Origin: Actinocrinis puniceicyclus
GTDB lineage: Bacteria > Actinomycetota > Actinomycetes > Streptomycetales > Catenulisporaceae
Direction of reading: 5' to 3'
DNA: 39,362 bases
Assembly (NCBI RefSeq): GCF_018283645.1
Contig: NZ_JAGSXH010000055.1
Location: 1 to 39,362, forward strand
The notes under the pieces were generated by a model. The model worked only from the letters and a program-made list of their open reading frames with translations, had not been told where the DNA came from and searched no databases. The translations under genes and the position numbers were made by a program. Positions within the stretch are counted from its first letter, which is position 1. Every line of letters starts with the position of its first letter. Positions 9,408-30,044 of this stretch are shown one piece after another.

Positions 9408-9461
9408 GAACCGGCACCGGCCGCCGCGACGCGCGCCGCCGGCCGCGCCGCCGGCCGCGCT

Positions 9462-9496: not shown

Positions 9497-9558
9497 ACGG
9501 TCGGACGCTGAAGTCGAATACTGAAGTCGAACGCTGAGGCCGAGCGCTCTCGTGTGCG

Positions 9559-9882
9559 TCAGCCGACGCCGGGTGGATCGGCGTCTCGCAGGGCCCGGCG
9601 CAACTGGGCCAGGTCGGGAGCCGTGTCCGTCCCGTGTTCGGTCCGGTAGAGGCGGCAGGCCAGCGCGGGCACGGCCCCGGGGGGCGCGAACGGGTCGCGC
9701 CCGTCGATGAGGATCGTCGGGGAACCACCGAATCCGGCCGCCTGCGCCTCGGCCTGCGTGGCGATGACCCGGGTGGTGAAGGTCGCGTCGGACAGGCCGA
9801 CCTCGTCCAGCGCCAGACGCAATCGCCCGGCCGCTTTGCCGCCGTTCGGGCAGTCAGGCACGAGCAGCAGTTCGATCCTCAT
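9559..9882 (-). CDS. Thioredoxin-fold small protein
   Basis: This 107-aa protein starts MRIELLLVPDCPN, continues through a helix and ends in a GGSPTILIDGRDPF segment. The layout is that of small thioredoxin-like proteins (beta strand, Cys, helix, later a cis-Pro loop), sometimes annotated as alkylmercury-lyase-like in actinomycetes. Only one cysteine is present at the position of the usual CxxC (DCPN), so a disulfide-exchange cycle would need a partner thiol. The ATG at 9882 has a GGGGGA ribosome site about 10 bases upstream; the alternative six codons upstream is less well placed. The function is unknown. Confidence 0.6.
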   Translation of the reverse strand: MRIELLLVPDCPNGGKAAGRLRLALDEVGLSDATFTTRVIATQAEAQAAGFGGSPTILIDGRDPFAPPGAVPALACRLYRTEHGTDTAPDLAQLRRALRDADPPGVG

Positions 9883-9963
9883 ACCACAACTGTCCCCCAC
9901 AAGCCGGCTACCGGCGCTGCCCCGTTCCCCACGGGCAGAACCGTGATGACCGCCGCTGAAGGC

Positions 9964-10839: not shown

Positions 10840-10911
10840 GAGAAAGCACGCTATCGCAGCGCTGCCGCGCGCCCGGCCCCAGCCCCGGACGGCCTTTCGC
10901 CGCAGCGGCTG

Positions 10912-12441
10912 TCAGAGACTTCGATGGCTGAGAACCGAGGAGCCGGCGATCAGCCAGCGGCCCTGCTGGAGGACCAGGCCGAACCGGGTGCGCTCCTCGA
11001 TGACCGTGCCGTCCTTGTAGTAGTAGTCGATCGTCGCTTCCACGCTCGACGGAGCTTGCGCCGTGACCGCCGAGACGCTGACTCGCTGGATCTGGGACCA
11101 GAAGCTGTCGTAACCGTCGCGGCCGCCGGCGTGGTTGGTCTGGTAGTCGGCGGTCATCCAGGTCCAGCCCTGATTCAGGTTGCCGGGCATCAGCCGGTAG
11201 TAGTCGACGATGGTCGAGACGAGCTGCGCTTCGAGCGGCTGCGATCCGGCGGGCGATGGTGCGGGCGTGCGGGAGGCCGGCGGCGTCGATCCCTGCGATG
11301 CGTGCGACGGGCTCTCGGTCGGCCTCGTCGCGGATGCGGACGGCCGGCGGGAAGCGGCGGGGGTGGTGCCGGAAGCCTTCACTCCTGACCCGCTTGCGCC
11401 GCCGCCGAACTGCCGGGCGAGAAGGACCGCCCCGACGGCTGACAGCACCGCCACGATCAACGCCGCGGCAAGCACGCGCCGCGCCCTGCGCGAAGGGCGC
11501 GTACCGCTGTCGCCGGGCTCCGGCTGCCCTACGAGTCCGGGCGTATGATCGTCTGCCGGTTCCGCGACGGGCTGTTCCACGGGCTTCGTAGGTTCCAGCG
11601 ACTGCGCGGGCAGGACCGCGTCCGGCTCCGTCTCCACCTGCTCAAGCGCCCGCTGAACCTGGGGCATCGTCGGGCGCAGCGCGGGATCCCGCTCAAGCAT
11701 CCACATCAGGACCGGCTCCAACGGGCCGGCTCGGCGCGCGGGGATGATTTCCTCGTGCACGATGCGATAAAGCAGCGCGACCGCGTTGTCGTCGGTGCCG
11801 AAAGGCGGCTGGCCTTCGACCGCGGCGTACAGGGTCGCGCCCAACGAGTAGACGTCGCTGCGAGCATCGGACGGTTGCCCTTGGGCCACCTCGGGAGCGA
11901 TGTAGCCGAGGGTTCCCAGCAGCACGCCGCTGGCGGTGACCGTGGTGTCGCCGACGGCCCGCGATATGCCGAAGTCGGTGAGCTTGACGGCGCCGTCCCC
12001 GAGCAGGACGTTGCCGGGCTTGACGTCGCGGTGCACGATCCCGGCCTCGTGCGCGGCCGTGAGCGCGGCGGCGAGCTGAGCGCCGACGCGCGCGGCCTCC
12101 CGCGGCGCCAGCAGTTCCTCGGCGGCCAGCATCTGAGAGAGGCTGCGCGCCGCCATGAACTCCATGACGAGAAACGGGCGGTTGTCGTGATCGACGACGT
12201 CGTAGATGCCGATCACGTTCGGATGGTGCAGCCGCGCCGCGATCCTCGCCTCGCGCATCGCCCGGCGCGCACCGTCATCGCTCTGCATCGCGCTGACGGC
12301 GGAGCGAAGCGGCAGCTCCTTGAGTGCCACGGTCCGGCCCAGTAACTCGTCGCGCGCCTGCCAGACCACGCCCATGCCGCCCTTACCGATCTGAGCGATG
12401 AGCCGATAGCGTCCCGCGATCAGATCGGCAGTCTCAGTCAC
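10912..12441 (-). CDS. Membrane Ser/Thr protein kinase with extracellular NTF2-like domain
   Basis: This 509-aa Hanks-type kinase (PknB relatives) has a Gly-rich loop IGKGGMGVVW (18-27), Lys41, catalytic loop HRDVKPGN (about 137), DFG (about 156) and APE (about 182). A Pro/Glu-rich juxtamembrane stretch precedes one membrane helix at about 323-345. The outer part begins with a Ser/Thr/Pro linker. It ends in a domain of roughly 105 residues (VDYYRLMPGNLNQGW...) like the NTF2-like domains found outside many actinomycete kinases. PASTA repeats are absent. The start is GTG at 12441. It would sense outside or cell-wall signals and phosphorylate cytoplasmic proteins. The FHA domain of the ATPase at 705-5393 is the type of module that binds such targets, but no link is shown. 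Confidence 0.9.
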   Translation of the reverse strand: MTETADLIAGRYRLIAQIGKGGMGVVWQARDELLGRTVALKELPLRSAVSAMQSDDGARRAMREARIAARLHHPNVIGIYDVVDHDNRPFLVMEFMAARSLSQMLAAEELLAPREAARVGAQLAAALTAAHEAGIVHRDVKPGNVLLGDGAVKLTDFGISRAVGDTTVTASGVLLGTLGYIAPEVAQGQPSDARSDVYSLGATLYAAVEGQPPFGTDDNAVALLYRIVHEEIIPARRAGPLEPVLMWMLERDPALRPTMPQVQRALEQVETEPDAVLPAQSLEPTKPVEQPVAEPADDHTPGLVGQPEPGDSGTRPSRRARRVLAAALIVAVLSAVGAVLLARQFGGGASGSGVKASGTTPAASRRPSASATRPTESPSHASQGSTPPASRTPAPSPAGSQPLEAQLVSTIVDYYRLMPGNLNQGWTWMTADYQTNHAGGRDGYDSFWSQIQRVSVSAVTAQAPSSVEATIDYYYKDGTVIEERTRFGLVLQQGRWLIAGSSVLSHRSL

Positions 12442-12682
12442 GACCGGTCCAAGAGTGTGCTCCGGATATTTAGGCCTCTTCCATCGAATAATCGGCTACC
12501 CGAGGCGCCATTGCGGAAACCGTCGCCGGACCGCCCCGTGAGGCACGCTTCGGACCGGCGACCGGCCACACACGATACGGCTTCCCGCCGAGTGAATCAA
12601 TTTGTTGCAATCCGCGATGGCCGACGGCCTGACGGCGCGGCAGGCCGGGCCGTCGGCTGAACTCGGGCCGCCGCGGCGGCGA

Positions 12683-13207
12683 TCAGAGCAGACCGGCCGC
12701 GCGGCCGGCCGCCACCGGCACCTGATCCTCTGTCGCGGGGCTGCGCACGGCCGCGTACAGCAGCCGCGGATCCGGGAGAGGTCCGGCGGCATGGCGCACG
12801 TGCGGCATGACCCGACGCCCCGACACCTTCGCCAGCGTGATGCGCACCAGGCCGTCGGTCGCGCCGCAGACCCAGGGCGCCGGGCCGTCCAGGAGGGCCC
12901 GCTGCTGCGAGAGCGGATCGGTCACCAGCGTGGCGCGCCCGAGAACGCACACCGACCAGGCCCACTGGGTGGCGAGGTCCATATGGTCGACCTCGAACGC
13001 GACCACGGCGCCGCGCGAAGCCTGGGCGATCGACCACAACGACCCGGTCCACACCCACACCTCGTTATCGCGCAGCGTGTAGTTGACCGGGGCGACGGCC
13101 GGCAAACCCGCGCGGGTGTACACCAGGCGCCCCACTTCCTGGGTTTCCAGCAGCCTCATCGCTTCCCCGCGACTGAGTATCTCTAGACCATTGCTGTCAA
13201 TCTCCAT
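12683..13207 (-). CDS. Pyridoxamine 5'-phosphate oxidase-family (flavin split-barrel) protein
   Basis: This 174-aa protein has the family pattern of a short N-terminal helix (SRGEAMRLLETQEVGRLV), then barrel strands AVAPVNYTL, VWVWTGSL, VVAFEVDHMD and SVCVLGRATLV. It lacks the residues needed to call it a true PdxH. Such proteins usually bind FMN, F420 or haem and act as small oxidoreductases, often in hypoxia or dormancy gene sets. The ATG at 13207 begins the domain; an AGGAG lies about 16 bases upstream, rather far. It is divergent from the HD gene at 13483 across 275 bp. Confidence 0.75.
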   Translation of the reverse strand: MEIDSNGLEILSRGEAMRLLETQEVGRLVYTRAGLPAVAPVNYTLRDNEVWVWTGSLWSIAQASRGAVVAFEVDHMDLATQWAWSVCVLGRATLVTDPLSQQRALLDGPAPWVCGATDGLVRITLAKVSGRRVMPHVRHAAGPLPDPRLLYAAVRSPATEDQVPVAAGRAAGLL

Positions 13208-13482
13208 ACGCTCAACGGTCCGACTCCTGTGCGCGCCGCGGCAGGGACACTCGTCCCGACTCGACCGGACCGAGGTCACTGCGGCGGTGCCGGTGCGGCG
13301 ACCGCCAGCGCTCCTTCCGCCGACGCAAGGTGTACACGCACCTACTTTTCGTGACAAGCACCGAGCTTGGCGCACACGCATCCCACAGCCGCGGCGCTCA
13401 CAAGCCGCCACCGACGAACAGCGGATCATGCCGGGCCGACGTGCCCTTGGGCGGCAGGCAGCGGCTCGCATAGCGTGAATGC

Positions 13483-14031
13483 ATGATCACGTACCCGTCG
13501 ATCGACGCCGAGGCGGCGCGGCGGTTCGCGTGCCGCGTCCTGCTTCCGTTGCCGCAGCGATGGATACACACGCAGGCCGTGGCAGCGCAGGCCGCGGCCG
13601 TGGCGCGCGCGGTCGCCCCGCAGGATCGGGCACTGCTGCTGGCCGCCGCGTGGCTGCACGACATCGGCTATGCGCCGGCCGCCGCGCTCACCGGTTTCCA
13701 TCCGCTCGACGGTGCGCGCCTTGCCGCCCGGTACAGCTGGCCACCACGCCTGACCGGGCTGATCGCCCACCACTCCGGGGCGCTGTTCGTGGCGCGGGTC
13801 TCCGGCTGGGACGAGCAATTGGCCGCCTTCCCCGACGAGGCGTCCCCGGTCACCGACGCCCTCGTCTACGCGGACCAGACCACCGCGCCGGACGGGCGAA
13901 TGCTGCCCGCCGACGTGCGCATCGCCCAGGCACTGGCCCGCCACGGCCCCGGCTCGCCGCAACACGGCGCGGCCGCACACCGCACCCCCTACCTACTGGC
14001 CGCCGTCGGGCGCGTGCAAGCCCGCCTCTAG
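13483..14031 (+). CDS. HD-domain hydrolase
   Basis: This 182-aa metal-dependent phosphohydrolase of the HD superfamily has a first His in WIHTQAV, then WLHDIGYA (the HD pair), further His in FHPLDGA and IAHHSGA, and the distal Asp in DALVYADQTT. These supply the four-to-five ligand set. The family acts on nucleotides or other phosphate esters; the substrate cannot be inferred. The ATG at 13483 gives the normal N-terminus. The stop at 14031 is followed by a gene-free stretch. Confidence 0.78.
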   Translation: MITYPSIDAEAARRFACRVLLPLPQRWIHTQAVAAQAAAVARAVAPQDRALLLAAAWLHDIGYAPAAALTGFHPLDGARLAARYSWPPRLTGLIAHHSGALFVARVSGWDEQLAAFPDEASPVTDALVYADQTTAPDGRMLPADVRIAQALARHGPGSPQHGAAAHRTPYLLAAVGRVQARL

Positions 14032-14507
14032 CAGCGGCCCACGGACCCTCCGTGACGTCGGCGGGTTCGACGCGGGGTCGGCGCGGGGTCGGCGCGGGGT
14101 CGGCGCTCGGCTCTCCCGCGCGGTGCCCGCCACCTGCATGGCCGAAGCCGCGTTGCAGGGCTTGTGTCCCCGTGTTGCGCTGATGACACTGCTTCGCGAC
14201 TCGCCCGCCGCGTCGCCGGAGGTGGTGGTCATGAGAAGCGGAATCCACTCGTCGGGGCGGCGGTTCGCGGGCCTCGGACCGGTCACTGCGGCCGCGGGCT
14301 TCTTCGCACGTACAGAGATCACGTACTCGGGCTCGGGCTCGGGCTCGGACACGGGTTGCGACAGCGAGCCTGGGGCGATGTGCACCTGCGACTCCGAGTC
14401 GCCCAGTCTGGCGAACGCGGCGGTGCAGGTCGCGCGAACAGCGGCCCCGCCGCCGCCATCGTCACCGCCCGGCGGTACCCGGGAACCCACGATCGCCGAG
14501 CGCTGAG
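14032..14507. other. Gene-free stretch with short GC repeats
   Basis: This holds three direct copies of an 11-bp unit (about GCGGGGTCGGC) near 14072-14105 and a (CTCGGG)n run near 14330-14350. Open frames cross it on both strands, but none has recognisable domains; the (CTCGGG)n run reads as a Gly-Ser repeat in one of them. It probably contains the promoter for the gene at 14508. Confidence 0.6.
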
Positions 14508-15455
14508 ATGACAGAGAACGCGGTGCGCTGCCGCAACGGCCATCCGATATCGGCCGGCCGGGCCGGGGCGGCGTTCTGCGCGATCTGTGGCGCGCCGATG
14601 CTCACCACGTGCCCGAACGGCCACCGGGTCCGGGCCGCTCGGCACTGCGGTGTGTGCGGGAGTCCGATGCCGGCCGCCGGGATACAGCAGGTGGAGTCAG
14701 ATACGGTTCCCTTCGCGCTGGAGCAGGCTCCCGACCATGGCGCCACCGGCAACGCCACCAGTCCCTGGGATGTCGGCGCCTGGGATATCGGCGCCCGGGA
14801 TGGCGGCCCCTCGGACATCGGTGGCTCCCCGAGCAGTCCGCAGGATCCGTCCGCTACGCAGTACATCGAGTCCCCCTCGCGCCTCCCCCGGCGCCGCTCC
14901 GCCTTCGTCGCCCTCGGTGTACTGCTCGCTGCCCTCATCGGCGCCGCCGTGTACTTCGGCCTCACCGGCTTCGGCCGCAGCAACCCGGTGAATGCGGCGT
15001 CGTCGGTGACGCCGCCCGCTGCCACCGCCGCGCCACCGGTGGACACCACGACAGCGCAGCAGCCGTCTACGAACACTGATACGGGGGCGGCGTCTTCGGC
15101 CCCGAGCACCGCACTGTCGGCCGGCGTCCCACAAGCCCCGGTCACCACCGCGACGCCCACGGCGTCAAGCCCCGAAACAGTCGTCCAGGCGTATTACGAC
15201 GCCATCAACGCCGGCGACTATCCGCTCGCCTGGTCCCTGGGCGGCAAGAACCTCGGACACGGCTCCTACGCGTCGTTCGTACAGGGGTTCGCCACCACCA
15301 GTTCGGACGCGGTGACCATCGTCTCGACCAGCGGCGACATCGTCACGATCCAGCTCGACGCGACTCAGACGGACGGCACACACCGCCATTTCGCCGGCAC
15401 ATACACCGTGCGCAACGGCACGATCGTCGCCTCGCAGATCCAAGCCCAGCCATGA
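14508..15455 (+). CDS. Double zinc-ribbon single-pass membrane protein
   Basis: This is a 315-aa protein. The N-terminus holds two zinc-binding ribbons (Cys8/His12 with Cys24-x2-Cys27, then Cys35/His39 with Cys47-x2-Cys50). A low-complexity segment with repeated W-D-I/V-G-A units follows at 87-106. One membrane helix lies at about 131-154, followed by a Thr/Pro/Ala-rich spacer. The C-terminal domain of about 90 residues (VVQAYYDAINAGDYPLAW) is NTF2-like and resembles the outer domain of the Ser/Thr kinase at 10912-12441. The likely topology is zinc ribbons inside and NTF2-like domain outside. The function is unknown. The next gene also starts with a zinc ribbon. Confidence 0.7.
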   Translation: MTENAVRCRNGHPISAGRAGAAFCAICGAPMLTTCPNGHRVRAARHCGVCGSPMPAAGIQQVESDTVPFALEQAPDHGATGNATSPWDVGAWDIGARDGGPSDIGGSPSSPQDPSATQYIESPSRLPRRRSAFVALGVLLAALIGAAVYFGLTGFGRSNPVNAASSVTPPAATAAPPVDTTTAQQPSTNTDTGAASSAPSTALSAGVPQAPVTTATPTASSPETVVQAYYDAINAGDYPLAWSLGGKNLGHGSYASFVQGFATTSSDAVTIVSTSGDIVTIQLDATQTDGTHRHFAGTYTVRNGTIVASQIQAQP

Positions 15456-16926: not shown

Positions 16927-17439
16927 CTACCCGCGCAGCTGATGATCAACGGACGCGGTCACCAGTTCGACGGCTCGCCGGGCCGCCGCCGGCACCGCGG
17001 ACGCGACCAGCGCACTGAGACCGGGGCCGTAGCCGAAGTCGCGCCCGACGACGGCGAGCACGACCAGCACCCGGGGCAGGCGGTCCAGCGCCCGGGCCAG
17101 CTGGACGGTACTGCCCAGGCTGACACTGTGGGAGCTGGCCGTCGCGGCGGTCAGCCCGGCCGCCTCCTCGCAGCGCAGTTCGTGGCAGTAGCCCGGCGGA
17201 TCCGTGGGCGAGAGCACCGCATCGATCACGACGGCCACGTCCGCGCCCGTCCACAAGTCGATCAGGCCGGTGGGCTCGCCGTCGGTGACCGCCAAGGTGA
17301 CCTCGGCGCCGACGGTGCCCTCCTCGCGCAGCAACTGCACCACGGCCGGGCCGAACCCGTCGTCGTGCCGCAGGTCGTTGCCGATCCCGATGACGACGCA
17401 CCGCCTGGGCGCGCCGGGCGGCACGGAGCCGGCGCTCAT
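16927..17439 (-). CDS. [NiFe]-hydrogenase maturation protease
   Basis: This 170-aa endopeptidase belongs to the HycI/HyaD family. It removes the C-terminal peptide of the large subunit once nickel is inserted. The N-terminal motif VVIGIGNDLRHDDGFG carries the first acidic Ni-sensing residue, and VVIDAV gives the second Asp. The His near ASSHSVSLG matches the third ligand region. Its ATG overlaps the large-subunit stop by four bases, so the two are translationally coupled. It is the last gene of the operon and its natural substrate is the adjacent large subunit. Confidence 0.85.
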   Translation of the reverse strand: MSAGSVPPGAPRRCVVIGIGNDLRHDDGFGPAVVQLLREEGTVGAEVTLAVTDGEPTGLIDLWTGADVAVVIDAVLSPTDPPGYCHELRCEEAAGLTAATASSHSVSLGSTVQLARALDRLPRVLVVLAVVGRDFGYGPGLSALVASAVPAAARRAVELVTASVDHQLRG

Positions 17440-18734
17440 GACCGGTCCACGGTCAGGTCCAGGAAGTGCGTGGCGCAGGAGATGCAGGGATCGTAGTTAC
17501 GGATCGCCTGCTCGCAGTCGTGGGTGAGCTGATGGTCGGACAGGTGGAGGCGGTCCGCGACGAAGCGGCGCAGGTCCTCCTCGATGCTGGCCTGGTTCTG
17601 CGAGGTCGGCGGCACGATGCGGGCGGAGGTGATCAGGCCGTCGGCGTCCAGCGCGTAGCGGTGAAAGAGCGTCCCGCGCGGAGCCTCGGTGGCGCCGTAC
17701 CCGGTCGCCGCGCGCGGCTGCACATCCACGTAGGGCACGGCGGGGGGCTCGTATTCGTCGATCAGGCGAAGCGCTTCCTCCACCGCGTACACCACCTCCA
17801 CCGCGCGTACCAGGATGCTGCGGTAGGGGTTGTCGCAGCGTTCACCCAGCCCGATGTCGTCGGCGACCTGCCGGGCCAGCGGCGAGAGCCAGGCCCGGTT
17901 CAGCGTGTAGCGGGCCGCCGGGCCGGTCAGGTAGCGGCCCCGGCCGGCCAGGTGCGCGTGCAGGGCGGTGGAGTGCTCGATGTGTTCCTCGATGACGTGT
18001 TCCTCGAACGCCGTGACCGGAAAGGCCAGGCCGCCCGTGGTCACCACGCTGCCGCGCTCGATGGCGTAGCGGCCGGGTTCGCTCAGGGCCAGCATCTCGT
18101 GGTCGTGGTGGAAGTCGGGGAACTCGAATCCCGCCACCCACCGGGCGGTGTCCAGCGCCTGGTCCAGCGCGACGCGCAGCTTGGCCGCCAGGGCGGTCAT
18201 CTGCTGCCGGGACGGCGCCCGGTAGAAACCGCCGATGCGCACGTTGATCGGGTGGATGGCCCGGCCGCCGACCACCTCCATGATCTCGTTGCCGACCTTC
18301 TTCAACGCCAGCCCGCGCTCCACCACGTCACGGTGGTCCTTGGCCATGTCGATCGCGCTGGGATAGCCGAGGAAGTCCGGCGCGTGCAGCAGATAGATGT
18401 GCAGCACGTGGCTTTCGATCCACTCTCCGCAGTACAGCAGCCGGCGCAGGTCGGCGACGGCGCCGTCGACCTGCACGCCGCAGGCGTCCTCGATCGCCGC
18501 GCAGGCGCTCATCTGGTACGCCACCGGGCAGATGCCGCAGATACGGGCCGTGATGTCGGGCGGCTCGGTGTAGCGGCGGCCGCGCAGGAACGCCTCGAAG
18601 AAACGCGGGGGCTCGTAGATCTCCAGGCGGACCTGCTCGACGGCGCCTGCGCGGACCCGCACGTGCATCGCGCCCTCGCCCTCCACACGGGCGAGGGCGC
18701 GAACGTCGAGCGTGCGATCGGGGCGGTGGGTCAT
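17436..18734 (-). CDS. hyhL: [NiFe]-hydrogenase large subunit, group 3b-like
   Basis: This 432-aa catalytic subunit holds the Ni-Fe(CN)2CO site. The proximal motif [11 protein letters not shown] carries Cys66 and Cys69. The distal motif DPCISCATH carries Cys417 and Cys420, completing the four Ni ligands. The nine residues after His423 are the predicted peptide removed by the downstream protease. The ICPVAYQ form, short tail and partner genes fit group 3b bidirectional NAD(P)-linked cytoplasmic hydrogenases (sulfhydrogenase type). No twin-arginine partner is present. It overlaps the small-subunit stop by four bases. The hyp genes for cofactor assembly are not in this window. Confidence 0.9.
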
Positions 18735-19513
18735 GACGCCTTCCCTCTGGTGGCTACCCGGGACAGTTCGATGAAGGTCGGCGCGCTGACGTTGAACGTG
18801 CGCGCGGCCCGCTGGATGTCGTCATCCGACATGCCCGTGGCCCGCAACAGCCCCGCCTGCGCTTGCGGATTGGGGGTGTCCATCGGGCCGAAACAGCCGT
18901 AGCAGCCGCGGTTGTGCGCGGGGCACAGCGCTCCGCATCCGGCGTGCGTCACCGGGCCGAGGCACGCGGCGCCGTGCGCGACCACGACGCAGACGTTGCC
19001 GCGCTGTTTGCACTCGAAGCACACGCTGTGCGCCGGGATGTTGGGCTTGCGCCCGACCAGGAGCGCGGTGATGACCTCCAGCAGCTGACGCCGGTCGACC
19101 GGGCAGCCGCGCAGCTCGAAGTCCACGTCCACGTGCGCCGAGATCGGGGTGGAGGTGGCCAGGGTGGAGATGTACTCGGGATGGGCGTAGACCACCGAGC
19201 GGAACTCCTCGACGTCCGCGAAGTTGCGCAGCGCCTGCACCCCGCCCGAGGTCGCGCAGGCCCCGATCGTCACCAGCGTGCGCGAGTCCTCACGCACCCG
19301 GCGGATGCGTTCGGCGTCCTCGGCGGTGGTGATGGAGCCCTCGACCAGGGAGACGTCGTAGGGGCCCGGCAGCACCTCGCGGCTGGCCTCCAGGAAGTGC
19401 GCCACCCGGACCCGGCCGGCCAGGGCCAGCAGTTCGTCCTCGCAGTCCAGCAGGGTCAGTTGGCAGCCGTCGCAGGAGGCGAACTTCCACACGGCCAGTG
19501 TCGGCGCGTCCAT
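18731..19513 (-). CDS. hyhS: [NiFe]-hydrogenase small subunit, group 3b-like
   Basis: This 260-aa iron-sulfur electron-transfer subunit has N-terminal [10 protein letters not shown] with Cys14 and Cys17, ligands of the cluster nearest the Ni site, completed by IGACATSGG and the Cys in LRGCPVD. A Cys-rich C-terminal half (ECKQRG...C, then [18 protein letters not shown]) supplies two further 4Fe-4S clusters. There is no Tat signal, so it is cytoplasmic. The ATG at 19513 overlaps the stop of the flavin subunit by one base (TGATG), which fixes the start although the frame is open further upstream. Confidence 0.9.
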
Positions 19514-20391
19514 CACAGCTCCCGTATCCGCATCAGCTCCGAGGCCCGGTCGTAGGTGACCACGGGCCCGTCCCGGCACAGCAGCAGCGGACCGAGCTGG
19601 CAGTGCCCGCACCAGCCCGCTCCACAGCGCATGGTGCGCTCCAGCGACACCTGGATCCGCTGCGTCGGCACCTCCAGCGCGATCAGGGCCTGCGCCGCGT
19701 ACCTCATCATGATCTCCGGGCCGCAGATGAACGCAGTGGTCTGGTTCGCGCCCGGTGCGGCGGGTTCCAGCAGGGAGGTCACCACGCCGACGTTGCCCTG
19801 CCAGCCCTCGCCGGGCCGGTCGACGGTGACCGCCACCTCGACGCCGCGTTCCCGCCACGCCTCCAGCTCGTCCGGGTAGAGCAGGTCGGCCGGAGAGCGG
19901 GCCCCCACGAGCAGCACCAGACGGCCGTAGCGCGACCGGTCCTCGAGCGCGGCGAGCAGCACGGGCCGCAGCGGCGCCAGTCCGATGCCGCCGGCGATGA
20001 TCAGAAGGTCGTGGCCGATGGCCGACGCCAGGTCCCAGCCGGTGCCGAACGGGCCGCGCACCCCGATCAGCTGGCCGGGTCGGACGGCACACAGCGAGCG
20101 GGTGACCGCCCCGACCGCGCGCACCGTGTGTTGCAGCCGCAGGGCGGCCGGGCCGCCGCCGTCGCCGCCGCTGCTGCCGAGTCCGCTCAACGAGATCGGC
20201 ACCTCGCCGATGCCGAAGGCGGTCAGCATCGAGAACTGGCCAGGCGCGAACAGCGGCAGCGGGTCGGCCTGGGCCGCCAACTCCATGGTGACCGTGTCGT
20301 AGGTGTCTTCACGCCGGGATACGACCCGGTAGAACCGGGGAACCGCCGGGTCGGCGTGTTCGGCCTCGGCCGCTTCGGTAAGCGTGGTCAC
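19513..20391 (-). CDS. hyhG: Hydrogenase flavin subunit (gamma; FAD/NAD(P)-binding)
   Basis: This 292-aa ferredoxin-NADP reductase-type subunit has an FAD-binding barrel at about 20-125, then the pyridine-nucleotide domain starting [15 protein letters not shown] (about 130) with FICGPEIMM (about 223). A C-terminal 2Fe-2S ligand set follows ([18 protein letters not shown]). This is the layout of HydG/HyhG and dihydroorotate dehydrogenase electron-transfer subunits. It moves electrons between NAD(P)H and the Fe-S chain. The GTG start at 20391 overlaps the stop of the cyclic-nucleotide-binding gene. Confidence 0.88.
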
Positions 20392-20909
20392 CGTGTCCCC
20401 TCGCTTTGCGGCGATTCGGCGCGGCGCGCGTCTGTGTCGGCCGCTTCGTCAGGCGAGGCGTAGAGGTCCAGCATCCGCAACCGAGTCGCCTGCAAACGCT
20501 CGATGATGACCGGGGTGAAGCAGCGCAGTATCGCGTAGCCGAACGCGGGGTCCGCCTCGCAGCGTCGCCGCACCGCCGCCGCGTCGAACGCGATGGCCTC
20601 GACGTCGTCGCGGGCCTGGGCGCCGAAGTGCCACCGGTGTGGCGGGTACAGCCACGACCAGCCCAGGACCGTGCCGGCGGACAGCGTCTCCACGGTCTGC
20701 TGCCCGCGGCCCGGCACCCATATGTCCAGCGCGACGCTGCCGGTTTCGATCAGCCAGAACCGTTCCGCGGCCGCGCCTTCGGCGAAGACGCGTTCGCCGG
20801 CGGCGAAGAGCACCGGCCAGGCGTCCTCGGCCAGCAGCTCACGCTGGGGCGGTGCGAGCGCGGCGAGGAAGGGGTGGGCCGCCACCCGCGTCTGCATCTG
20901 GGCTGTCAT
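20388..20909 (-). CDS. Cyclic nucleotide-binding domain protein in hydrogenase operon
   Basis: This is a 173-aa protein made almost entirely of a CRP-like cNMP-binding barrel: FAAGERVFAEGAAAERFWLIETGSV, a mid-loop with LSAGTVLGW, then the long C-helix (about 115-145). It has no helix-turn-helix domain and ends in a disordered acidic tail. It lies between the beta and gamma hydrogenase genes, 18 bp after the first and overlapping the second. It is more likely to regulate or scaffold the enzyme than to bind DNA. The phosphate-binding cassette has diverged (LGWSWLYPPHRWHFGAQA has no clear R-A pair), so the ligand may not be cAMP. Confidence 0.8.
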   Translation of the reverse strand: MTAQMQTRVAAHPFLAALAPPQRELLAEDAWPVLFAAGERVFAEGAAAERFWLIETGSVALDIWVPGRGQQTVETLSAGTVLGWSWLYPPHRWHFGAQARDDVEAIAFDAAAVRRRCEADPAFGYAILRCFTPVIIERLQATRLRMLDLYASPDEAADTDARRAESPQSEGTR

Positions 20910-20927
20910 CGTTCGCTCCGATTCCGC

Positions 20928-22142
20928 TCAGTCTTCTTTGATGCCGACAGCCTCGGCGTCGGCTGTTTCGCCGCCGGCTGCATCGAGGACGGACGGGGGC
21001 CGCAGCGCGGCGAGTGCGGCGGCCTCCTGCGTGATGTCGATTCCGACGGGGCACCACACGATGCACCGGCCGCAGCCGACGCAGCCGGAGGAGCCGAACT
21101 GCTCGTGCCACGTGCCCAGCTTGTGGCTGATCCACTGCCGGTAGCGGCTCTGTCCGCTCACGCGCACCTCGCCGCCGTGCATGCCGGTGAAGTCCAGGGA
21201 GAAGCAGGAGTCCCACACGCTCCAGCGCTCGGCGTGGTCCCCGGTCAGGTCCGTGACATCCTCGGTGGCGGTGCAGAAGCAGGTGGGGCAGACCATCGTG
21301 CAGTTGCCGCAGGTCAGGCAGCGTGAGGCGACGTCGTCCCAGTGCGGGGACTCCCGGCTTTCCGTCATGAGGCGCGGCAGGTCCACCTCGGGCATCGCGC
21401 GGCCCATCTCGGTCGCCGCCCGCTTCACCGCCGCCTGTGCTTTGTGCACGGTCGCGTCGTCGGCGGGGCGCTGGGGCAGTTGCGCGAGCAGCCGGGCTCC
21501 GGCCTCGGTGCCGCTGCGCGCCACGAACCGGTGATCGTCGCCGTCGACCAGTTCGGTCAGCGCCAGATCGTAGCCGCTCTGTGCGTCCGGGCCGCACCCC
21601 ATCGAGGCGCAGAAGCAGGTCGCGCCGGGCTCGGTGCACTCCACCGCGATCACGAACGCGCCGTCGCGCCGCCCGCTGTAGACGGCGTCGGCGTGCTGTC
21701 CGTGGGAGAGCACGCGGTCGAGGACGCCGATCGCGCGCACGTCACAGGGGCGCACCCCGAGCAGGGCGTACCGGGGTTGCTCGCCGGCCCCGGAGACGGT
21801 CACGGCGTCCGCGGTGCGGTCGGCCGACCACATCCTGGCCCGGGGCGGGTGCAGGAAGTTCTTCCACGACTGGGGTCCGGCCGAGTGCCCGAACGCGGCC
21901 GTGTCCGAGCGCCGACGAACCCGGTACTGGCCGGCCTCAGTCTCCACGCCCCACCCGTAGGGCAGTTCGGCGGCCGACTCCAGTTCGGAAAGAACGATGG
22001 CGCCGTCACGCACGGTCGGCCCGACCACGGTGTAGCCCCATGCCCGCAGGGCGGAGAAGAGCGCGGGCAACGCGTCCACGCCGATCACCACGGGCTCAGG
22101 CGCGCACACCGTCACGACGCCGGGGTTCGAGCCTTGCTGCAT
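20928..22142 (-). CDS. hyhB: Hydrogenase 4Fe-4S subunit (beta)
   Basis: This 404-aa electron-transfer subunit has a large N-terminal domain of the HydB/HyhB (sulfhydrogenase beta, AsrA-like) kind with RPCDVRAIGVLDRVL, followed by two ferredoxin cluster sites (CLTCGNCTMVCP and CVGCGRCIVWCP). It takes electrons between the flavin subunit and another carrier. The ATG at 22142 is preceded by GGAAAGGGGA at proper spacing; an in-frame ATG 22 codons upstream is less likely. It is first in the operon, so its upstream region should hold the promoter. Confidence 0.87.
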   Translation of the reverse strand: MQQGSNPGVVTVCAPEPVVIGVDALPALFSALRAWGYTVVGPTVRDGAIVLSELESAAELPYGWGVETEAGQYRVRRRSDTAAFGHSAGPQSWKNFLHPPRARMWSADRTADAVTVSGAGEQPRYALLGVRPCDVRAIGVLDRVLSHGQHADAVYSGRRDGAFVIAVECTEPGATCFCASMGCGPDAQSGYDLALTELVDGDDHRFVARSGTEAGARLLAQLPQRPADDATVHKAQAAVKRAATEMGRAMPEVDLPRLMTESRESPHWDDVASRCLTCGNCTMVCPTCFCTATEDVTDLTGDHAERWSVWDSCFSLDFTGMHGGEVRVSGQSRYRQWISHKLGTWHEQFGSSGCVGCGRCIVWCPVGIDITQEAAALAALRPPSVLDAAGGETADAEAVGIKED

Positions 22143-22381
22143 TAGCGGGTCCCCTTTCCGCAGTTCTGTCAGGTCACCAGCAGCACGTCGCCCCGATTGC
22201 CGCGACACGGCGCCACTTCCAAAGCGTGATCGCCGCGGGCATCGCCCGGCAGGGCCGAAAGGCCCGCACCGCGAGTACGAATTGCGCTACGGCTCCGGCG
22301 CGGGACGCCGCCGGCCGATCGGCTGGTCACCACGGGCAGCGCGGACCGGCCACCGCCGTGAGCTCGGTGGCGGCTCGGGGG

Positions 22382-22418
22382 GTGTCAGCGCGGTGAGTGT
22401 CAGCGCGGTGAGTGTCAG
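22382..22418. repeat. 15-bp tandem repeat x2.5
   Basis: The unit GTGTCAGCGCGGTGA occurs at 22382-22396 and 22397-22411, with 7 bp of a third copy. It lies about 240-275 bp upstream of the hydrogenase operon start. Confidence 0.85.
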
Positions 22419-22427
22419 GGCTCAGGG

Positions 22428-22440
22428 TTGCCCTGTGCAA
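22428..22440. promoter_or_regulatory. Near-match to TTGCA-N3-TGCAA palindrome
   Basis: The sequence TTGCCCTGTGCAA has one mismatch to the palindrome found at 22651, 23142, 30067 and 37359. It lies 286 bp upstream of the hydrogenase beta gene. Confidence 0.35.
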
Positions 22441-22650
22441 AGCCGCGACGCCTAGGACGTCTCAGGAAGCTGCAAAGGCTGTGGGTGCGTGCGGACGCGG
22501 ATCACTCGCGGGCGTCCCGGCTGCGGCCCGCGGCAGGGCCTCGCCCTCGCGCGTCAGCAGCCGAGTCAGCGCGTCAGTGGCCTCGACCCGGTCATGCCGG
22601 CGGCGCTCTGCCCCTCGCCGTGACACGGCACGCCGCGGATGCCGCTATCA

Positions 22651-22663
22651 TTGCATAGTGCAA
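22651..22663. promoter_or_regulatory. TTGCA-N3-TGCAA palindromic operator
   Basis: The sequence TTGCATAGTGCAA extends by one further pair (A/T) at each end. On the minus strand it shares TTGCAC-N2-TGCAATGAT with the site in the TetR promoter. No gene start is close by. Confidence 0.55.
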
Positions 22664-23141
22664 TAAGAAGTCCATCGAGTTGACTTGCCTGACCCACCAG
22701 CCCAGCGCGCGCGAGGAAGGACGAGGGGACGCGCCACCGTCCCGCAGACGCCATGAGCTTGAAGATCGACGGCGGCCGTGACGCGTTCCGCCGACGCGCG
22801 TGCGTCGGCGGGTGCCGCGTCGGTCGGGCCGCAGGAACGCAGGGGCGGGAACCGGCCGTTGCGTCGCGGGTCGGCACGACAAGATCGCAGCTCACGGTGG
22901 CCCCGTGCGCAGTCGAGCAGGTGCGGGCGGCGAGACGCGACGCGCCGCCGCCTTCCCTGTTCAATGAGCCAGAGGGGGTGCGCGAGCCGGGCGATGAGGA
23001 TCCGGACCGCCGCTGCCGGGCCAGCCGCGCGGTCACCACCGCCATGACGCGGGGCGAGCGTGCGTCGATCTCCTGCGCGGCCCGCGACGGACGCGAGGTA
23101 CCGATGCAGAAGTGTGAACTCAGCGCCGGTCGGCGGATTCG

Positions 23142-23154
23142 TTGCACGGTGCAA
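23142..23154. promoter_or_regulatory. TTGCA-N3-TGCAA palindromic operator
   Basis: The sequence TTGCACGGTGCAA exactly matches the palindrome. It lies 42 bp past the stop of the MarR gene, so it is not in that gene's promoter. Confidence 0.55.
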
Positions 23155-23196
23155 GACCAGGCAGCGCCCGTTCCGCCGCGGCCGCGGCGCGGCGGG

Positions 23197-23694
23197 TCAG
23201 TGCCAGCCGGGCAACCCCGGCACGTCGTTGGGTGGCTCGCCGCCGGCTTCGGTGAACTTGCGCAGCGCGGTGATCAGGTCCTCGCGCGCCTGCGGATCCA
23301 GCGCCTCGACGATCGCGGCCATCTGCTTGCGGCGGTTCTCGGTCACCTGCCGAACCACCTCCCAGCCGGAGGGCGTCAGCCGCAACCGGACCTCGCGGCG
23401 GTTCTTGGGATTCGGGATCTTCTCCACCATGCCCGAAGCCGACAGCCGCTCGACCATCCGCAGGGCGGTGGACGGATTCACGTCAAGGTTCTCCGCCATT
23501 CGCGCCAAGCTGCTGGGGCCCTGCGCGTCGAGCACGACGAGCATCCGGTACTGCGGCAGCGTGAGGCTCTCCTCGACCGCCGCCAGCGACCGAGCGGCGA
23601 TCGCCACCAGCAGGCGCGAGGCGGTCAGCAGTTCGCCGATCACCCGCTCGCTGTCCTGATCCACCGCCCCGCGCGGTGTCCACGATGTCGGCAT
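23197..23694 (-). CDS. MarR-family transcriptional regulator
   Basis: This 165-aa winged-helix repressor has helix 1 at SERVIGELLTASRLLVAIA, then LTLPQYRMLVVLDAQG. The helix-turn-helix is LARMAENLDVNPSTALRMVERL, and the wing is KNRREVRLRLTPSG. A C-terminal dimerisation helix follows. The ATG at 23694 gives the normal length. It is divergent from the ClC gene across 67 bp, so it probably controls that gene and itself. MarR proteins are usually released by small aromatic or oxidising ligands. Confidence 0.9.
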   Translation of the reverse strand: MPTSWTPRGAVDQDSERVIGELLTASRLLVAIAARSLAAVEESLTLPQYRMLVVLDAQGPSSLARMAENLDVNPSTALRMVERLSASGMVEKIPNPKNRREVRLRLTPSGWEVVRQVTENRRKQMAAIVEALDPQAREDLITALRKFTEAGGEPPNDVPGLPGWH

Positions 23695-23761
23695 GCGCAC
23701 CTTTCTACCGGGAACCACCGCCGCCCGCCATGCAATCGCTCTACAGCCCGCCGGAGTGTCC

Positions 23762-25639
23762 ATGCCTAACCCAACGCCAAACACTATAAGCGCTCGGCGT
23801 TCGAAAACCGGAGCGGAGCGCCAAGACCGCGGTACACGTCCACTGCGCGCTCCGGCGACCGGCGTGCCGGCCGTCGGCAGCCCGATGCGACGCGTGCTGC
23901 CGGCGCTTCGCGAGTCGAACGGCGGTCTGGCGGTGCTCGCCGTGACGGTCGGCGCCGGGGCGGGTGCGGGCGCGATCGCCTTCCGCTGGCTGATCCGCAC
24001 GTTCACGCTGCTGCTTTCCGGGCACGCCGACTATTCCGCGGCAGGGCACGCGGCCAACCCGCACATCGCGCTCCTCGGTCGGTATTTCGTGCTGTTCGCG
24101 CCGGTGCTGGCCGGGCTGCTCTACGGTCCGCTGGTGGCGCGCTTCGCCCCGGAGGCGCGCGGGCACGGCGTGCCGGAGGTCATGTACGCCGTGGCCCGCC
24201 GCTCCGGTCGGATCGGCCCGCAGGTGGCGGTCGTCAAATCCCTCGCGTCCGCGCTGTGCATCGGCGGCGGCGGCTCGGTGGGGCGCGAGGGACCGATCGT
24301 GCAGATCGGCTCCGCGCTCGGTTCCACTCTCGGGATGTGGCTGCGCGTGGCCCAGTTGCGTTTGCGCATCCTGGTGGCGTGCGGCGCGGCCGGCGGCATC
24401 GCGGCGACCTTCAACGCCCCGATGGCCGGGGTGTTCTTCGCGATGGAGCTGATCCTGCGGGACTTCACCGCGCAGTCCTTCGGCATGGTCGCCCTGGCCT
24501 CGGTGACCGCCAGCGTCATCGGCCGCACCGCGTTCGGCGACACCCCGTTCCTGCACCTGCCCGCCTTCCACGTCCAGCACCTGGGCCAGTACGCCCTCTT
24601 CGCGCTGCTGGGCCTGCTGGCCGGCGTGGTCGGCGTGGCTTTCACGCGGGTCCTGTACGCGGTGGAAGACCTCTGCGACGCGGTGTCGCGGGTGCCGGCG
24701 TGGGCGCGCCCCGCGGTCGGCGGCCTCGCGCTCGGCGCGCTGCTGCTGGTCCTGCCGCAGATGTACGGCGTCGGCTATCCGGTGCTGGCCAACGGCGTCT
24801 ACGGGACCTACTCGGTCGTGTTCGTCCTGGTGCTGATGTTCGGCAAGATGGTGGCCACCAGCCTGACCATCGGCATCGGTGGCAGCGGCGGGGTGTTCGC
24901 GCCCTCACTGTTCATCGGCGCCATGTTCGGATCCGCCTTCGGCCAGACCGCAGGGCACCTGCTGCCCGCGCTGGCCGGGCCGCCCGGCGCGTACGCCCTG
25001 ATCGGCATGGGGGCGGTGTTCGCCGGATCCGCCCGCGCCCCGATCACCGCCGTGGTCATCATGTTCGAACTGACCGGCGACTACACCGTGATCCTGCCGC
25101 TGATGGCCGCCATCGCGCTGGCCACCGGTGCCAGTGCCCTGATCTCCCGGGACACGATCTACACCCTCAAGCTGCGGCGCCGCGGCATCGACCTGGACGC
25201 GCCCGTTCCCGCCGCCCTGCTGCCCGGCCGCACCCTGCGCGACGTGATGGAACCGGCGCCCACGCCGTTGCCCGAGGACACACCGCTCCACAAGGCCGAG
25301 GACCGGCTCTCCCGGGCTCGCCACGGCGCACTGCCCGTGGTCGGATCCGACGGCGAATACATGGGCGTGCTGACCGCTCAAGCCGCCGCCGGAACGCTCA
25401 CCGACGAACGCCGGGCCGACATGACCGCCGACATCCCGGTACGGGAACTGATTTTCCTGCCGCACGTCGTGACGCTGGAAACCCCGCTGCACGAGGCGCT
25501 GGACGCCCTGGTGGCCGCCGAGCAGTCCGGGCTGCCCGTCCTGGACGAGAGCGGCCTGCGGCTCGCCGGCTGGATCACCCACCAAAGCCTGCTCGCAGCC
25601 GTCCACAAGGCCCATGCCGTCACGCGGACGGTGTCCTGA
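23762..25639 (+). CDS. ClC-family chloride channel/antiporter with CBS pair
   Basis: This 625-aa membrane protein has a basic N-terminal tail of about 40 residues. A membrane domain to about residue 470 carries the ClC signatures GHGVPEV, GREGP (with the gating Glu) and GGSGGVFAPS. Two cytoplasmic CBS domains follow (about 490-550 and 560-615; LRDVMEPAPTPLPEDTPLH and VVTLETPLHEALDAL) that may bind adenine nucleotides. The first selectivity motif has His where Ser is usual (GSGIP), which may change anion selectivity. The start at 23762 has GGAG six bases upstream; an earlier ATG at 23693 overlaps the MarR start and is less likely. Confidence 0.9.
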   Translation: MPNPTPNTISARRSKTGAERQDRGTRPLRAPATGVPAVGSPMRRVLPALRESNGGLAVLAVTVGAGAGAGAIAFRWLIRTFTLLLSGHADYSAAGHAANPHIALLGRYFVLFAPVLAGLLYGPLVARFAPEARGHGVPEVMYAVARRSGRIGPQVAVVKSLASALCIGGGGSVGREGPIVQIGSALGSTLGMWLRVAQLRLRILVACGAAGGIAATFNAPMAGVFFAMELILRDFTAQSFGMVALASVTASVIGRTAFGDTPFLHLPAFHVQHLGQYALFALLGLLAGVVGVAFTRVLYAVEDLCDAVSRVPAWARPAVGGLALGALLLVLPQMYGVGYPVLANGVYGTYSVVFVLVLMFGKMVATSLTIGIGGSGGVFAPSLFIGAMFGSAFGQTAGHLLPALAGPPGAYALIGMGAVFAGSARAPITAVVIMFELTGDYTVILPLMAAIALATGASALISRDTIYTLKLRRRGIDLDAPVPAALLPGRTLRDVMEPAPTPLPEDTPLHKAEDRLSRARHGALPVVGSDGEYMGVLTAQAAAGTLTDERRADMTADIPVRELIFLPHVVTLETPLHEALDALVAAEQSGLPVLDESGLRLAGWITHQSLLAAVHKAHAVTRTVS

Positions 25640-27144: not shown

Positions 27145-29418
27145 CTACCGGTGGTCGGGGCCGACGGACTCGCGGGCCGGCTCGGGCGGCCGGACCGGGT
27201 TCGCGGCCGCGCCGCCGGGCAGCAGCCGGGCCAGGCCGGAGGGCAGCCACCAGTTCCAGCCGCCCAGCAGCCGCATCAGCGCCGGCACGAGCACCAGCCG
27301 GATCAGCGTGGCGTCCAGGGCGATCGCGGCCGAGAGCGCCAGGCCGAACTGCTTGAGCTCAAGCACGTTCGCGATCATGAAGCTGCCGAAGACGGCGACC
27401 ATGATGGCCGCGGCGGCTGCGATCGGCCGGGCGGTGTGCTCGATGCCCGTGGCCACCGCGGTGGCGTTGTCACGGGTCTGCTGCCACACCTCCTGCATGC
27501 GGCGGATGAGGAAGACCTCGTAGTCCATCGACAGGCCGAACAGCATCACGAACACGCTGATCGGCAGGTAGACCTGGAGGAAGCCGACGCTCGTGAAGCC
27601 CAGCAGCCCGGAGCCGTGGCCCCACTGGAAGACCGCGACGGTCAAGCCCATGGCGGCGGCGGTCGCCAGCAGGTTCATCGCGACCGCCTTGACCGGCAGC
27701 ACGACGCTGCGGAAGACCACGAGCAGGAACAGCAGCGAGAGTCCGAGCACGAGCAGCAGGATGTACGGGACCTTCGCGTTGGTCTCGTGGGTCAGGTCGA
27801 GGAAGACCGCGGTCGCCCCGCCCACCAGCGCGACCGTGCCGGTGTGCGCGGTGGTCTGCGGGATCACCTCGTCACGCAGATGCCGGACCAGGTCGGTGGC
27901 GGCCGAGGAGTCGATCGGCACCGACGGCACCGCGTCGATCAGGACCCGCCCGCCCACCTGCTGGGTGTCCACGGCGCTGACGCGCTTGTCCTGGCCGACG
28001 GTCGTGGCGAGCTGCTGCGCCTGCTGGAGGCCGCTGGGCGAGAGCGGGGTGTCGCCCGGCCCGGTGACGATCATCTGCACCGGCGAGACGACGCCGGGAC
28101 CGAAGGAGTGCTCCAGCACCTGCTGAGCCTTGGCGGAGGGCTTGCCGGTCAGCGAGGCGGTGCCAAGGTCGATGCCGTAATGCATGTCGCCCACCGGCAG
28201 GGCGGCCAGCACGAGGACCGCGACGGCCGCGACGCCGGCGGTGACCGGGTGGCGCATGATCGTGTGCGCCCAGCGCGCCCAGCCGCCGCTGTTCTCCAAG
28301 GCACCCGGCTGGATGTCGGCCGGCTGGAAGCGGCGCGGCAGCGAGCCGCGGTTGACCCGGGCGCCGAGCATGACGAGCACCGCGGGCAGCAGCGTCCACG
28401 CGGCAGCCAGGGTACTGACGACCACGATCAGCACGGCGACGGAGATCTCCTGGAAGACCGAGGAGTTCACGATGAACAGCGAGCACATCGAGATCGCGAC
28501 CACGACGCCGGAGAACAGCACCGTGCGACCGGAGGTGGCCATCGCGGAGCCGGCCGCCTCGGCGATCTGGTCGGCCTGGGCGCGGTGCTGCGGGCCGCCG
28601 CCCTTGCCGGTCACCCCGCGCCGGGCCAGTTCCTCGCGGAAGCGGCTGACGATGAACAGGGCGTAGTCGATTCCGATGCCGGTGCCGATCATCGTGATGA
28701 TGGTCACCAGGAAGGCGTCGAAGTTGAAGGCGAGGGTCAGCAGGGTGACGATGCCGAAGGCCAGCACCAGCCCGGCCATGGCCAGCAGCAGCGGCAGCAG
28801 GGCGGCGACCACGGCGCCGAGGGCGAACAGCAGCACCGCCAGCGCGATCGGCATGCCGATGGACTCGGCGTGTTCGGAGTCGGCGTTCTCGACCGCGGTC
28901 AGGTCGTTCGTGATCGGCGAGTAGCCGGTCAGGTACGCCTGCACTCCGCCGGCGTCGTTCTTCACCGCGTCCTGCACGGCGTTCTGCACCTTGCCGGAGC
29001 GCGAGGTCAGCTGGCTGGGGCTGCCGTCGAGGCCGATCAGCGCGAGCGCGGCGTGGTGGTCCGCGGAGACCTGGTCGTGGGCCTTGGGGTCGAAGGGGCT
29101 GAGCACTCCCGCGACACCGGTCTGGCCGTGCGCGGCGGCCAGCACCTTGTCGACGGCCGCCCGCCCGGCGGTGTCGGTGATGTCGCCGGGGCTGTTGAAG
29201 ACGATGACGTCCTGTTCGGCCCCTTCGCCGGCGAAGTGGCGCTGGAGCAGCGTGCCGACCTGTGCGGACTGGGAGCCGTTCACGCCGTAGTTCGGCCCGC
29301 CCAGGTGCGACTGCAGGACCGGGAAGCCGGCCATGCACGCGACCAGGATCGCCAGCCAGGCGATCAGGACCGCCTTGCGGTGGTGCGCCATTCTGACGCC
29401 CCATTGGTGTGCGCTCAT
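27145..29418 (-). CDS. MMPL-family (RND superfamily) exporter
   Basis: This 757-aa inner-membrane transporter has an N-terminal helix (VLIAWLAILVACMAGFPVL), a periplasmic loop domain, then five to six helices with the signature GIGIDYALFIVSRFREEL. A second set of the same layout carries GLSMDYEVFLIRRMQE. Each half has the Asp-Tyr pair that carries protons in MmpL proteins. A basic Pro-rich cytoplasmic tail follows. The family exports lipids, siderophores, dyes and antibiotics using proton flow. The ATG at 29418 overlaps the TetR stop (ATGA). It is next to the prodiginine genes, so a role in pigment or drug export is plausible but not shown. Confidence 0.9.
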   Translation of the reverse strand: MSAHQWGVRMAHHRKAVLIAWLAILVACMAGFPVLQSHLGGPNYGVNGSQSAQVGTLLQRHFAGEGAEQDVIVFNSPGDITDTAGRAAVDKVLAAAHGQTGVAGVLSPFDPKAHDQVSADHHAALALIGLDGSPSQLTSRSGKVQNAVQDAVKNDAGGVQAYLTGYSPITNDLTAVENADSEHAESIGMPIALAVLLFALGAVVAALLPLLLAMAGLVLAFGIVTLLTLAFNFDAFLVTIITMIGTGIGIDYALFIVSRFREELARRGVTGKGGGPQHRAQADQIAEAAGSAMATSGRTVLFSGVVVAISMCSLFIVNSSVFQEISVAVLIVVVSTLAAAWTLLPAVLVMLGARVNRGSLPRRFQPADIQPGALENSGGWARWAHTIMRHPVTAGVAAVAVLVLAALPVGDMHYGIDLGTASLTGKPSAKAQQVLEHSFGPGVVSPVQMIVTGPGDTPLSPSGLQQAQQLATTVGQDKRVSAVDTQQVGGRVLIDAVPSVPIDSSAATDLVRHLRDEVIPQTTAHTGTVALVGGATAVFLDLTHETNAKVPYILLLVLGLSLLFLLVVFRSVVLPVKAVAMNLLATAAAMGLTVAVFQWGHGSGLLGFTSVGFLQVYLPISVFVMLFGLSMDYEVFLIRRMQEVWQQTRDNATAVATGIEHTARPIAAAAAIMVAVFGSFMIANVLELKQFGLALSAAIALDATLIRLVLVPALMRLLGGWNWWLPSGLARLLPGGAAANPVRPPEPARESVGPDHR

Positions 29419-30044
29419 CGTGGTTCTCCTGCCAGCAGGCCCAGCACGGCGGCTGCGGCCGGCTGGGTGTCGAGGTCGGGGTCGAGGACGAGGTGCAGGA
29501 TCAGGCCGTCCAGCAGGGCGGCGATCGCGGCGGCGACACCGTCGGCGGGAACGCCGGCCGCCAGCGCGCCGCGCTGCTGGTCGCGGCGGACCAGGTCTGC
29601 CAGTGCCTTGCGATAGTCGTGCAGTTCGGCGGCGATAGGGGCGCGTAGCAGTGGGTCGCGCGCGGCCTGCCGGGCCGTTTCGAGCAGTTGTGCGACCGCG
29701 GGATCGGCCAGCCCGCCCGCGGCGTACCAGGCGAAGGTGCCTTCCAGCAGTTCGGCGACGCTGCCGGCCTGCGTGGCGAAGGCCGCGGGCGCGGCCAGCG
29801 CCTGCCGGGTGGCGGCCAGTGCCGCCTCGCGCAGTAGTTCCTCCTTGCCCGCGAAGTGGTAGCTCACGGCGCCGTGCGGCACCCCGGCGCGGGCCGCGAT
29901 GGCACGGGTGGTGACCGCGCACCAGCCGCTCTCGGCGACCAGGGCGGCTGCGGCGTCCAGTAGTGCCCGGCGGGTCGCAACCCCCTGCTCCGCCGTGGAC
30001 GGTCTTCGACCTGGGCGGTTGCGGCGAGTGCTCGGGTTGTCCAT
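29415..30044 (-). CDS. TetR-family repressor
   Basis: This 209-aa regulator has an N-terminal DNA-binding domain (TRRALLDAAAALVAESGW, then the recognition helix RAGVPHGAVSYHF and GKEELLREA), followed by a helical ligand-binding domain with the TetR_C pattern. The ATG at 30044 is chosen because the domain begins about 15 residues later and because a promoter sits so close upstream that the mRNA may be leaderless. It is coupled to the MMPL gene by an ATGA overlap, a common local-repressor/exporter pair. Two palindromes of the TTGCA-N3-TGCAA kind lie 22 and 45 bp upstream, so it probably represses itself. Confidence 0.92.
   Translation of the reverse strand: MDNPSTRRNRPGRRPSTAEQGVATRRALLDAAAALVAESGWCAVTTRAIAARAGVPHGAVSYHFAGKEELLREAALAATRQALAAPAAFATQAGSVAELLEGTFAWYAAGGLADPAVAQLLETARQAARDPLLRAPIAAELHDYRKALADLVRRDQQRGALAAGVPADGVAAAIAALLDGLILHLVLDPDLDTQPAAAAVLGLLAGEPR

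Follow-up and report, generated by a model that had tools for sequence, protein, structure and literature searches.

Predicted operators of a MarR-family regulator in and around a gene-free stretch of the Actinocrinis puniceicyclus genome

The window analysed here, by which we mean the whole stretch of 39,362 bases from Actinocrinis puniceicyclus, contains a group of hydrogenase-like genes, a gene-free stretch (the gap), a marR gene with a divergent ClC gene, a TetR gene followed by that of an MMPL-family transporter, and the gene of a SARP-type activator, and it furthermore holds six matches, with at most one mismatch, to the palindrome TTGCA-N3-TGCAA (Table 1). The protein encoded next to the gap scores 46.7 bits against the Pfam MarR model, for which the cut-off is 24.6, and thus has the winged-helix domain of the family.

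Table 1. Positions of the genes, palindromes and other features of the window, counted from its first base.
Feature	Position	Strand	Remarks
Hydrogenase/sulfhydrogenase-like genes, possible target of the gap sites	17436-22142	-	NCBIfam sulfhydrogenase subunits, all below NCBI cut-offs; gene calls
Gene-free stretch	22143-23196		1,054 bp, from hydrogenase operon to marR; three palindromes inside; no coding signal
Palindrome TTGCCCTGTGCAA	22428-22440		1 mismatch; weak by itself; matrix score 11.1
168-codon frame	22648-23154	-	TTG start; chance frame; codon score -39.2; no Pfam match
Palindrome TTGCATAGTGCAA	22651-22663		strongest predicted MarR operator in the window; matrix score 31.8
Palindrome TTGCACGGTGCAA	23142-23154		about 42 bp beyond the marR stop codon; matrix score 15.0
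MarR-family regulator, proposed palindrome binder	23197-23694	-	Pfam MarR 3e-12; start codon uncertain
ClC chloride channel, divergent from marR	23693-25639	+	Pfam Voltage_CLC 4.8e-98; start codon uncertain
MMPL-family transporter, follows the TetR gene, same strand	27145-29418	-	Pfam MMPL 3.6e-76; gene calls
TetR-family regulator, predicted MarR target	29415-30044	-	Pfam TetR_N 3.4e-15
Palindrome TTGCACCGTGCAA	30067-30079		22 bp ahead of the TetR start codon; matrix score 21.6
Palindrome CTGCATTGTGCAA	30090-30102		1 mismatch; second site ahead of the TetR gene; matrix score 18.5
SARP-type (BTAD) activator, predicted MarR target	36424-37248	-	Pfam BTAD 1.7e-40; NCBIfam AfsR/SARP below cut-off
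Palindrome TTGCACGCTGCAA	37359-37371		upstream of the SARP gene; minus-strand TTGACA ends 6 bp before the palindrome; matrix score 22.1

In the scan for TTGCANNNTGCAA, which allowed one mismatch, none of 100 dinucleotide shuffles of the window reached six matches and their mean was 0.22, and the scan and this control bear out the first-pass annotation in its claim that three of the six matches cluster between 22428 and 23154. Across the genome (6.77 Mb) there are seven exact matches as opposed to one for the reversed-pattern control, four of them on the contig of the window and three inside 2.7 kb of contig C430. With one mismatch allowed, however, the genome contains 23 matches (the seven exact ones among them) against 24 for the control, and since this is no excess the signal is carried by the exact sites. 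A weight matrix for which named relatives supplied all the training sites (54 distinct ones, none of them from this genome) puts the same six window sites on top. Among 40 Markov-shuffled windows one had a best score above that of 23142 and four above that of 22428; site 22651 is thus strong, far above chance, 23142 is moderate, and 22428 by itself lies inside the chance range, its score being topped by four of the 40. It is a real, if not the favoured, possibility that the cluster is in part accidental, in that 22428 is no site and the gap has two operators only, and both the position of its score in the shuffled-window range and the missing genome-wide excess of one-mismatch sites agree with this notion, but no more than 211 bp separate 22428 from an exact site, of which the whole genome has just seven. 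Directly to the left of 22428, at 22382-22419, there is a short tandem repeat of about 2.5 copies of the 15-base unit GTGTCAGCGCGGTGA.

No gene was called in 22143-23196, where the best coding segment scored 6.0 against a shuffle median of 5.7 and the best small ORF -2.8 against -4.2, none of the small ORFs being above chance. Searches at E up to 1 gave no match to Rfam in the gap and none to Pfam in five gap frames (a smaller set than the whole six-frame translation), and a pattern scan of the gap for sigma-70 promoters and terminators found none. Gene remnants were likewise not found in the gap beyond chance level by tblastn with the 1,898 proteins predicted from the fetched loci; a match of 31% over 92 residues (E=0.002 for one query among 1,898) to a STAS-like protein of locus L157 was judged to be due to chance. 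The small protein of contig C430 and Actinospica durhamensis was searched for in the gap as well and not found. The gap, in short, shows neither the codon signal nor the homology of a gene or a pseudogene, and the earlier statement that it holds no recognisable gene was right according to the gene caller, the codon scans and Pfam on five frames, while the suggestion of an unrecognised small gene, as far as this means a small protein, finds no support in either the small-ORF scan or the small-protein search.

The first-pass annotation had also put weight on a 168-codon minus-strand frame said to begin in one palindrome and to end by another. The frame is indeed present between 22648 and 23154, its start codon being part of a palindrome arm and its stop lying beside the next palindrome, but the weight put on it is unsupported, since its codon score is -39.2 as compared to +36.7 for the MarR gene. 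Its GC content by codon position is furthermore 0.76/0.67/0.69 versus 0.70/0.49/0.91 in the MarR gene, and it was rejected as a gene on the codon score, on this GC pattern and on the lack of a Pfam match. Its appearance is not that of a gene, and we take it to be a chance frame in GC-rich DNA.

The first-pass annotation had proposed looking at conservation in sister genomes, and here the DNA of the gap is not conserved, giving short weak matches only, scattered over the query (29 of 59 other genomes, E 1.4e-5 or weaker), whereas conservation is seen for the motif and for its link to marR. Sixty genomes, the present one included, were searched as one set for TetR, motif and MarR, and the motif TTGCAYNRTGCAA occurs in 22 of them, with 60 sites in total as against 3 for the reversed control. 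A close MarR homologue (E<=1e-30) is found in 21 of the 22 motif genomes versus 8 of the 38 others, with a p of 1.1e-8 that overstates independence, since genomes and loci share kinship. One of 43 MarR homologues is found no more than 500 bp away from 23 of the 60 sites and no more than 12 kb away from 43 of them, and with the present genome left out the corresponding numbers are 22 and 40 of 54. The spacing is likewise constrained, since in 79 named loci, the best 79 of at least 549 MarR relatives and fetched by a scan that selected for the recognition helix, a spacer of 3 accounts for all 60 half-site pairs seen when every spacer from 0 to 12 is allowed, while in the same best 79 of at least 549 none of 59 permuted half-sites exceeds 3. 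An exact site is found within 300 bp of marR in 35 of the 79 loci (best of at least 549) and is missing within that distance in 44; as controls on the same loci, two random segments give 3 of 79 and the reversed half-site none. By genus, the site-bearing loci among these best 79 of at least 549 are 26 of 49 in Streptomyces, 5 of 14 in Actinomadura, 3 of 4 in Catenulispora and 2 of 2 in Actinospica, besides smaller groups, and the single loci from Mangrovactinospora, Gandjariella and Lentzea in the same set have no site (0 of 1 apiece). The nearest named relatives in this set of the best 79 of at least 549 are the two Actinospica species, with identities of 68 and 67%, and in each of them an exact site precedes marR; that of A. 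durhamensis lies between marR and a divergent ClC gene, and in the other species the contig ends at that place. Class-wide outside the order (197 genomes) the motif is present in 3 of 15 MarR-bearing and 23 of 166 other genomes, the reversed control in 12 of 197, and no association is seen; what the data show are the sites, their enrichment and, within the order, the link between MarR and motif.

From these observations it appears highly probable that the palindromes serve the MarR-family protein encoded at 23197-23694 as operators, a judgement that concerns the identity of the regulator and its operator rather than that of the target, and the earlier description of the palindromes as operator-like is supported by the MarR-motif association, the sites near marR homologues and the fixed spacer of 3. 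The window TetR has been weighed as the binder as well, and two sites in tandem, 22 and 45 bp ahead of the start codon of its own gene, are indeed a typical layout for autoregulation. A TetR homologue (E<=1e-20) is however found in just 3 of the 60 genomes, the present one included, as against 22 with the motif, which tracks MarR, and in Actinomadura loci a TetR gene lies behind a marR-adjacent site, i.e. in the place of a target; binding by TetR was rejected on its distribution across the 60 genomes and is in our view highly improbable, and MarR can with good confidence be put forward as the best candidate. Two further MarR homologues are encoded on contig C177 of the same genome, with identities of 58 and 45%, and these could bind instead of, or beside, the window MarR. 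On this contig, at 8090-15240 of locus L110 (C177:20000-39999), there is a second group of three MarR-cluster genes with a ClC-like and a GNAT-like gene, and this group has just a one-mismatch site, TTGCACTAAGCAA at 11799.

Predicted palindromic operators near the regulator's own gene are shared among MarR homologues, and in the window the predicted sites likewise lie near marR, at its 3' side. A matrix scan of the promoter region shared by marR and ClC (23640-23900) gave no operator, the best score being -5.4, and since the Actinospica relatives have or may have a site in this place, the circuit seems to have been rewired around marR in the present lineage.

A regulon of MarR operators with a 5-3-5 layout is of a known kind. 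According to the paper on SAV4189 of Streptomyces avermitilis, this MarR-family repressor binds palindromes of 13 bp in which two inverted 5-nt repeats are separated by 3 nt, has three of them in its own promoter region, affects a biosynthetic pathway and is co-transcribed with an efflux gene, its operator consensus being TTGCCYKHRSCAA (PMC6036246). The likeness is one of operator layout, with 5-nt arms and a spacer of exactly 3 nt in both, whereas the arms in the window are TTGCA/TGCAA, i.e. TTGCAYNRTGCAA instead of the SAV4189 consensus, and whereas the predicted operators of the present genome are located at distant genes and on the 3' side of marR, with none in the marR promoter region. 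By protein sequence, the closest solved relative of the window MarR is Rv1404 (structure 2nyx, E 5.1e-39 over residues 11-155), the next best match having an E of 1.6e-10. Papers citing Healy et al. 2016 describe Rv1404 as an acid-stress regulator of neighbouring genes (PMC6536590, PMC13002591, PMC5526998, PMC5936775), and the targets cited there are methyltransferase genes. No exact TTGCAYNRTGCAA occurs in six MarR-bearing genomes, all from a single genus, in the set outside the order. In the search of solved structures the Escherichia coli MarR is a weak sequence match to the window MarR; it belongs to the same family, with a TTGCC-type operator that presumably differs in arm sequence, spacing and targets from that of the window. 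A search with six spellings of the motif letters in the open-access literature, a coverage outside which most subscription journals fall, returned no prokaryotic paper that prints the motif.

As to how the sites may work, we infer direct binding, repression and a release signal: the window MarR would presumably bind the 13-bp TTGCA-N3-TGCAA, with its two 5-bp arms and 3-bp spacer, as a dimer and repress promoters until a signal releases it. Likely targets in the window are the TetR-MMPL unit with its two operators and the SARP activator, and control of a biosynthetic cluster by MarR by way of this activator is possible. The SARP gene, with site 37359 in its promoter region just after a perfect minus-strand TTGACA, adjoins genes of fatty-acid/polyketide type. 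On contig C430 (L001, 616-3350) three exact sites, at 616, 1889 and 3338, precede the genes of an MscS-like channel, a 73-residue protein and a SpoIIE-type phosphatase, and these three are likely targets as well. By eye the 73-residue protein resembles a marR-adjacent one in A. durhamensis; a profile built from the two, which both match by construction, found no further member in the loci at E<0.2.

The nearest genes at up to 420 bp behind a site were tallied for 88 sites from the 79 named loci (best of at least 549) and 20 other sources, and the tally gives ClC 25, MarR 19, a membrane protein without a Pfam match 13, TetR 4 (that of the window among them), an FAD-binding protein 4 and a zinc-ribbon-like small protein 4 (weak match below cut-off), the rest being mostly ones and twos, although these counts are inflated by contigs that are present twice (e.g. 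L170 and L047). When gene starts within 250 bp were counted in a somewhat different set of 104 distinct sites, there was one at 54 of them, two at 29 and none at 21, so that sites lacking a gene, as in the gap, are not unusual. Five of the 54 sites with one gene start (L190, L049, L193, L124 and L177) are preceded by a TTGAC-type hexamer whose end is 4 bp away from the operator, an arrangement in keeping with repression by occlusion. The palindromes, in sum, are real and most likely the landing sites of the adjacent stress-type repressor in what would be a circuit common to many soil actinobacteria. A soil-actinobacterial MarR branch that is often paired with ClC would thereby gain an operator and a testable list of targets, the operator could be used to trace this regulon through further genomes of Streptomycetales type and some of their neighbours, and the targets suggest a connection by which stress sensing would reach an exporter as well as a biosynthetic cluster, the latter through its activator.

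With regard to what the gap sites control, the leading reading, to be held tentatively, is that they place the hydrogenase operon under MarR, in the way that other genes may be so placed in relatives. The first gene of this operon is the next co-directional gene from the gap sites, which would thus lie between marR and their target, but the distances of 286 to 1,000 bp are long. A site at most 700 bp 3' of marR is found in 20 of the 79 loci (best of at least 549) and this is hence a common operator position, while the gene behind it is swapped between lineages, the next gene in these 20 of the best 79 of at least 549 being that of a membrane protein in 9, ClC in 4, DUF4142 in 3, TetR in 2 and others in 2. 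No site (at most one mismatch, up to 1.5 kb to either side) was found near the hydrogenase gene in 12 loci of 11 other genomes; conservation of hydrogenase control among relatives is on these loci unsupported, and the notion of a local capture of the operon is weakened.

Ranking close behind hydrogenase control is the idea, possible though doubtful, that the operators are orphans of a MarR target (a TetR, a membrane protein or another stress gene) which was once located behind marR and was lost or moved, the DNA having decayed since. Both readings share the identity of MarR, and the one competes only with the other. That a site 3' of marR occurs in 20 of 79 loci (best of at least 549) with varying next genes is in agreement with such a loss, as is the fact that the present genome gave no match to the membrane protein of the relatives in a search run without a positive control. 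The proposal of the first-pass annotation that the gap is the scar of a lost regulator or exporter likewise fits the comparative position 3' of marR, but no gene remnant is detectable: among 1,898 locus proteins none left a trace beyond chance, and the gap has no codon signal. It would also be odd for 22651, if it were without use, to have the top score of the window.

That MarR controls a non-coding RNA, or some very small product, made from the gap is rather unlikely. Site 22651 is admittedly a strong predicted operator with no gene start within 250 bp, and its minus strand shares TGCAATGATAG, as seen by eye and after the fact, with the site at C430:1889, which is located 69 bp ahead of a small gene; the empty Rfam search, the absence of a promoter or terminator pattern, the lack of conservation and the lack of any above-chance small ORF all argue against such a product. 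For the further suggestion that the gap is a decoy binding region nothing speaks. A more elaborate version, in which the gap would be a gene-free MarR-binding array next to a regulator gene whose own promoter region has no operator here, acting by way of a non-coding transcript or as a local sink by which the level of free MarR is set, with a regulon in which a hydrogenase, an exporter and a biosynthetic activator are all tied to a stress circuit of ion/acid type, is improbable. Elsewhere, in the two loci L216 and L220 of genus g8, a one-mismatch site together with TGCAA-N3-TTGCA is found ahead of a MarR homologue, as if the half-sites had been conserved but rearranged.
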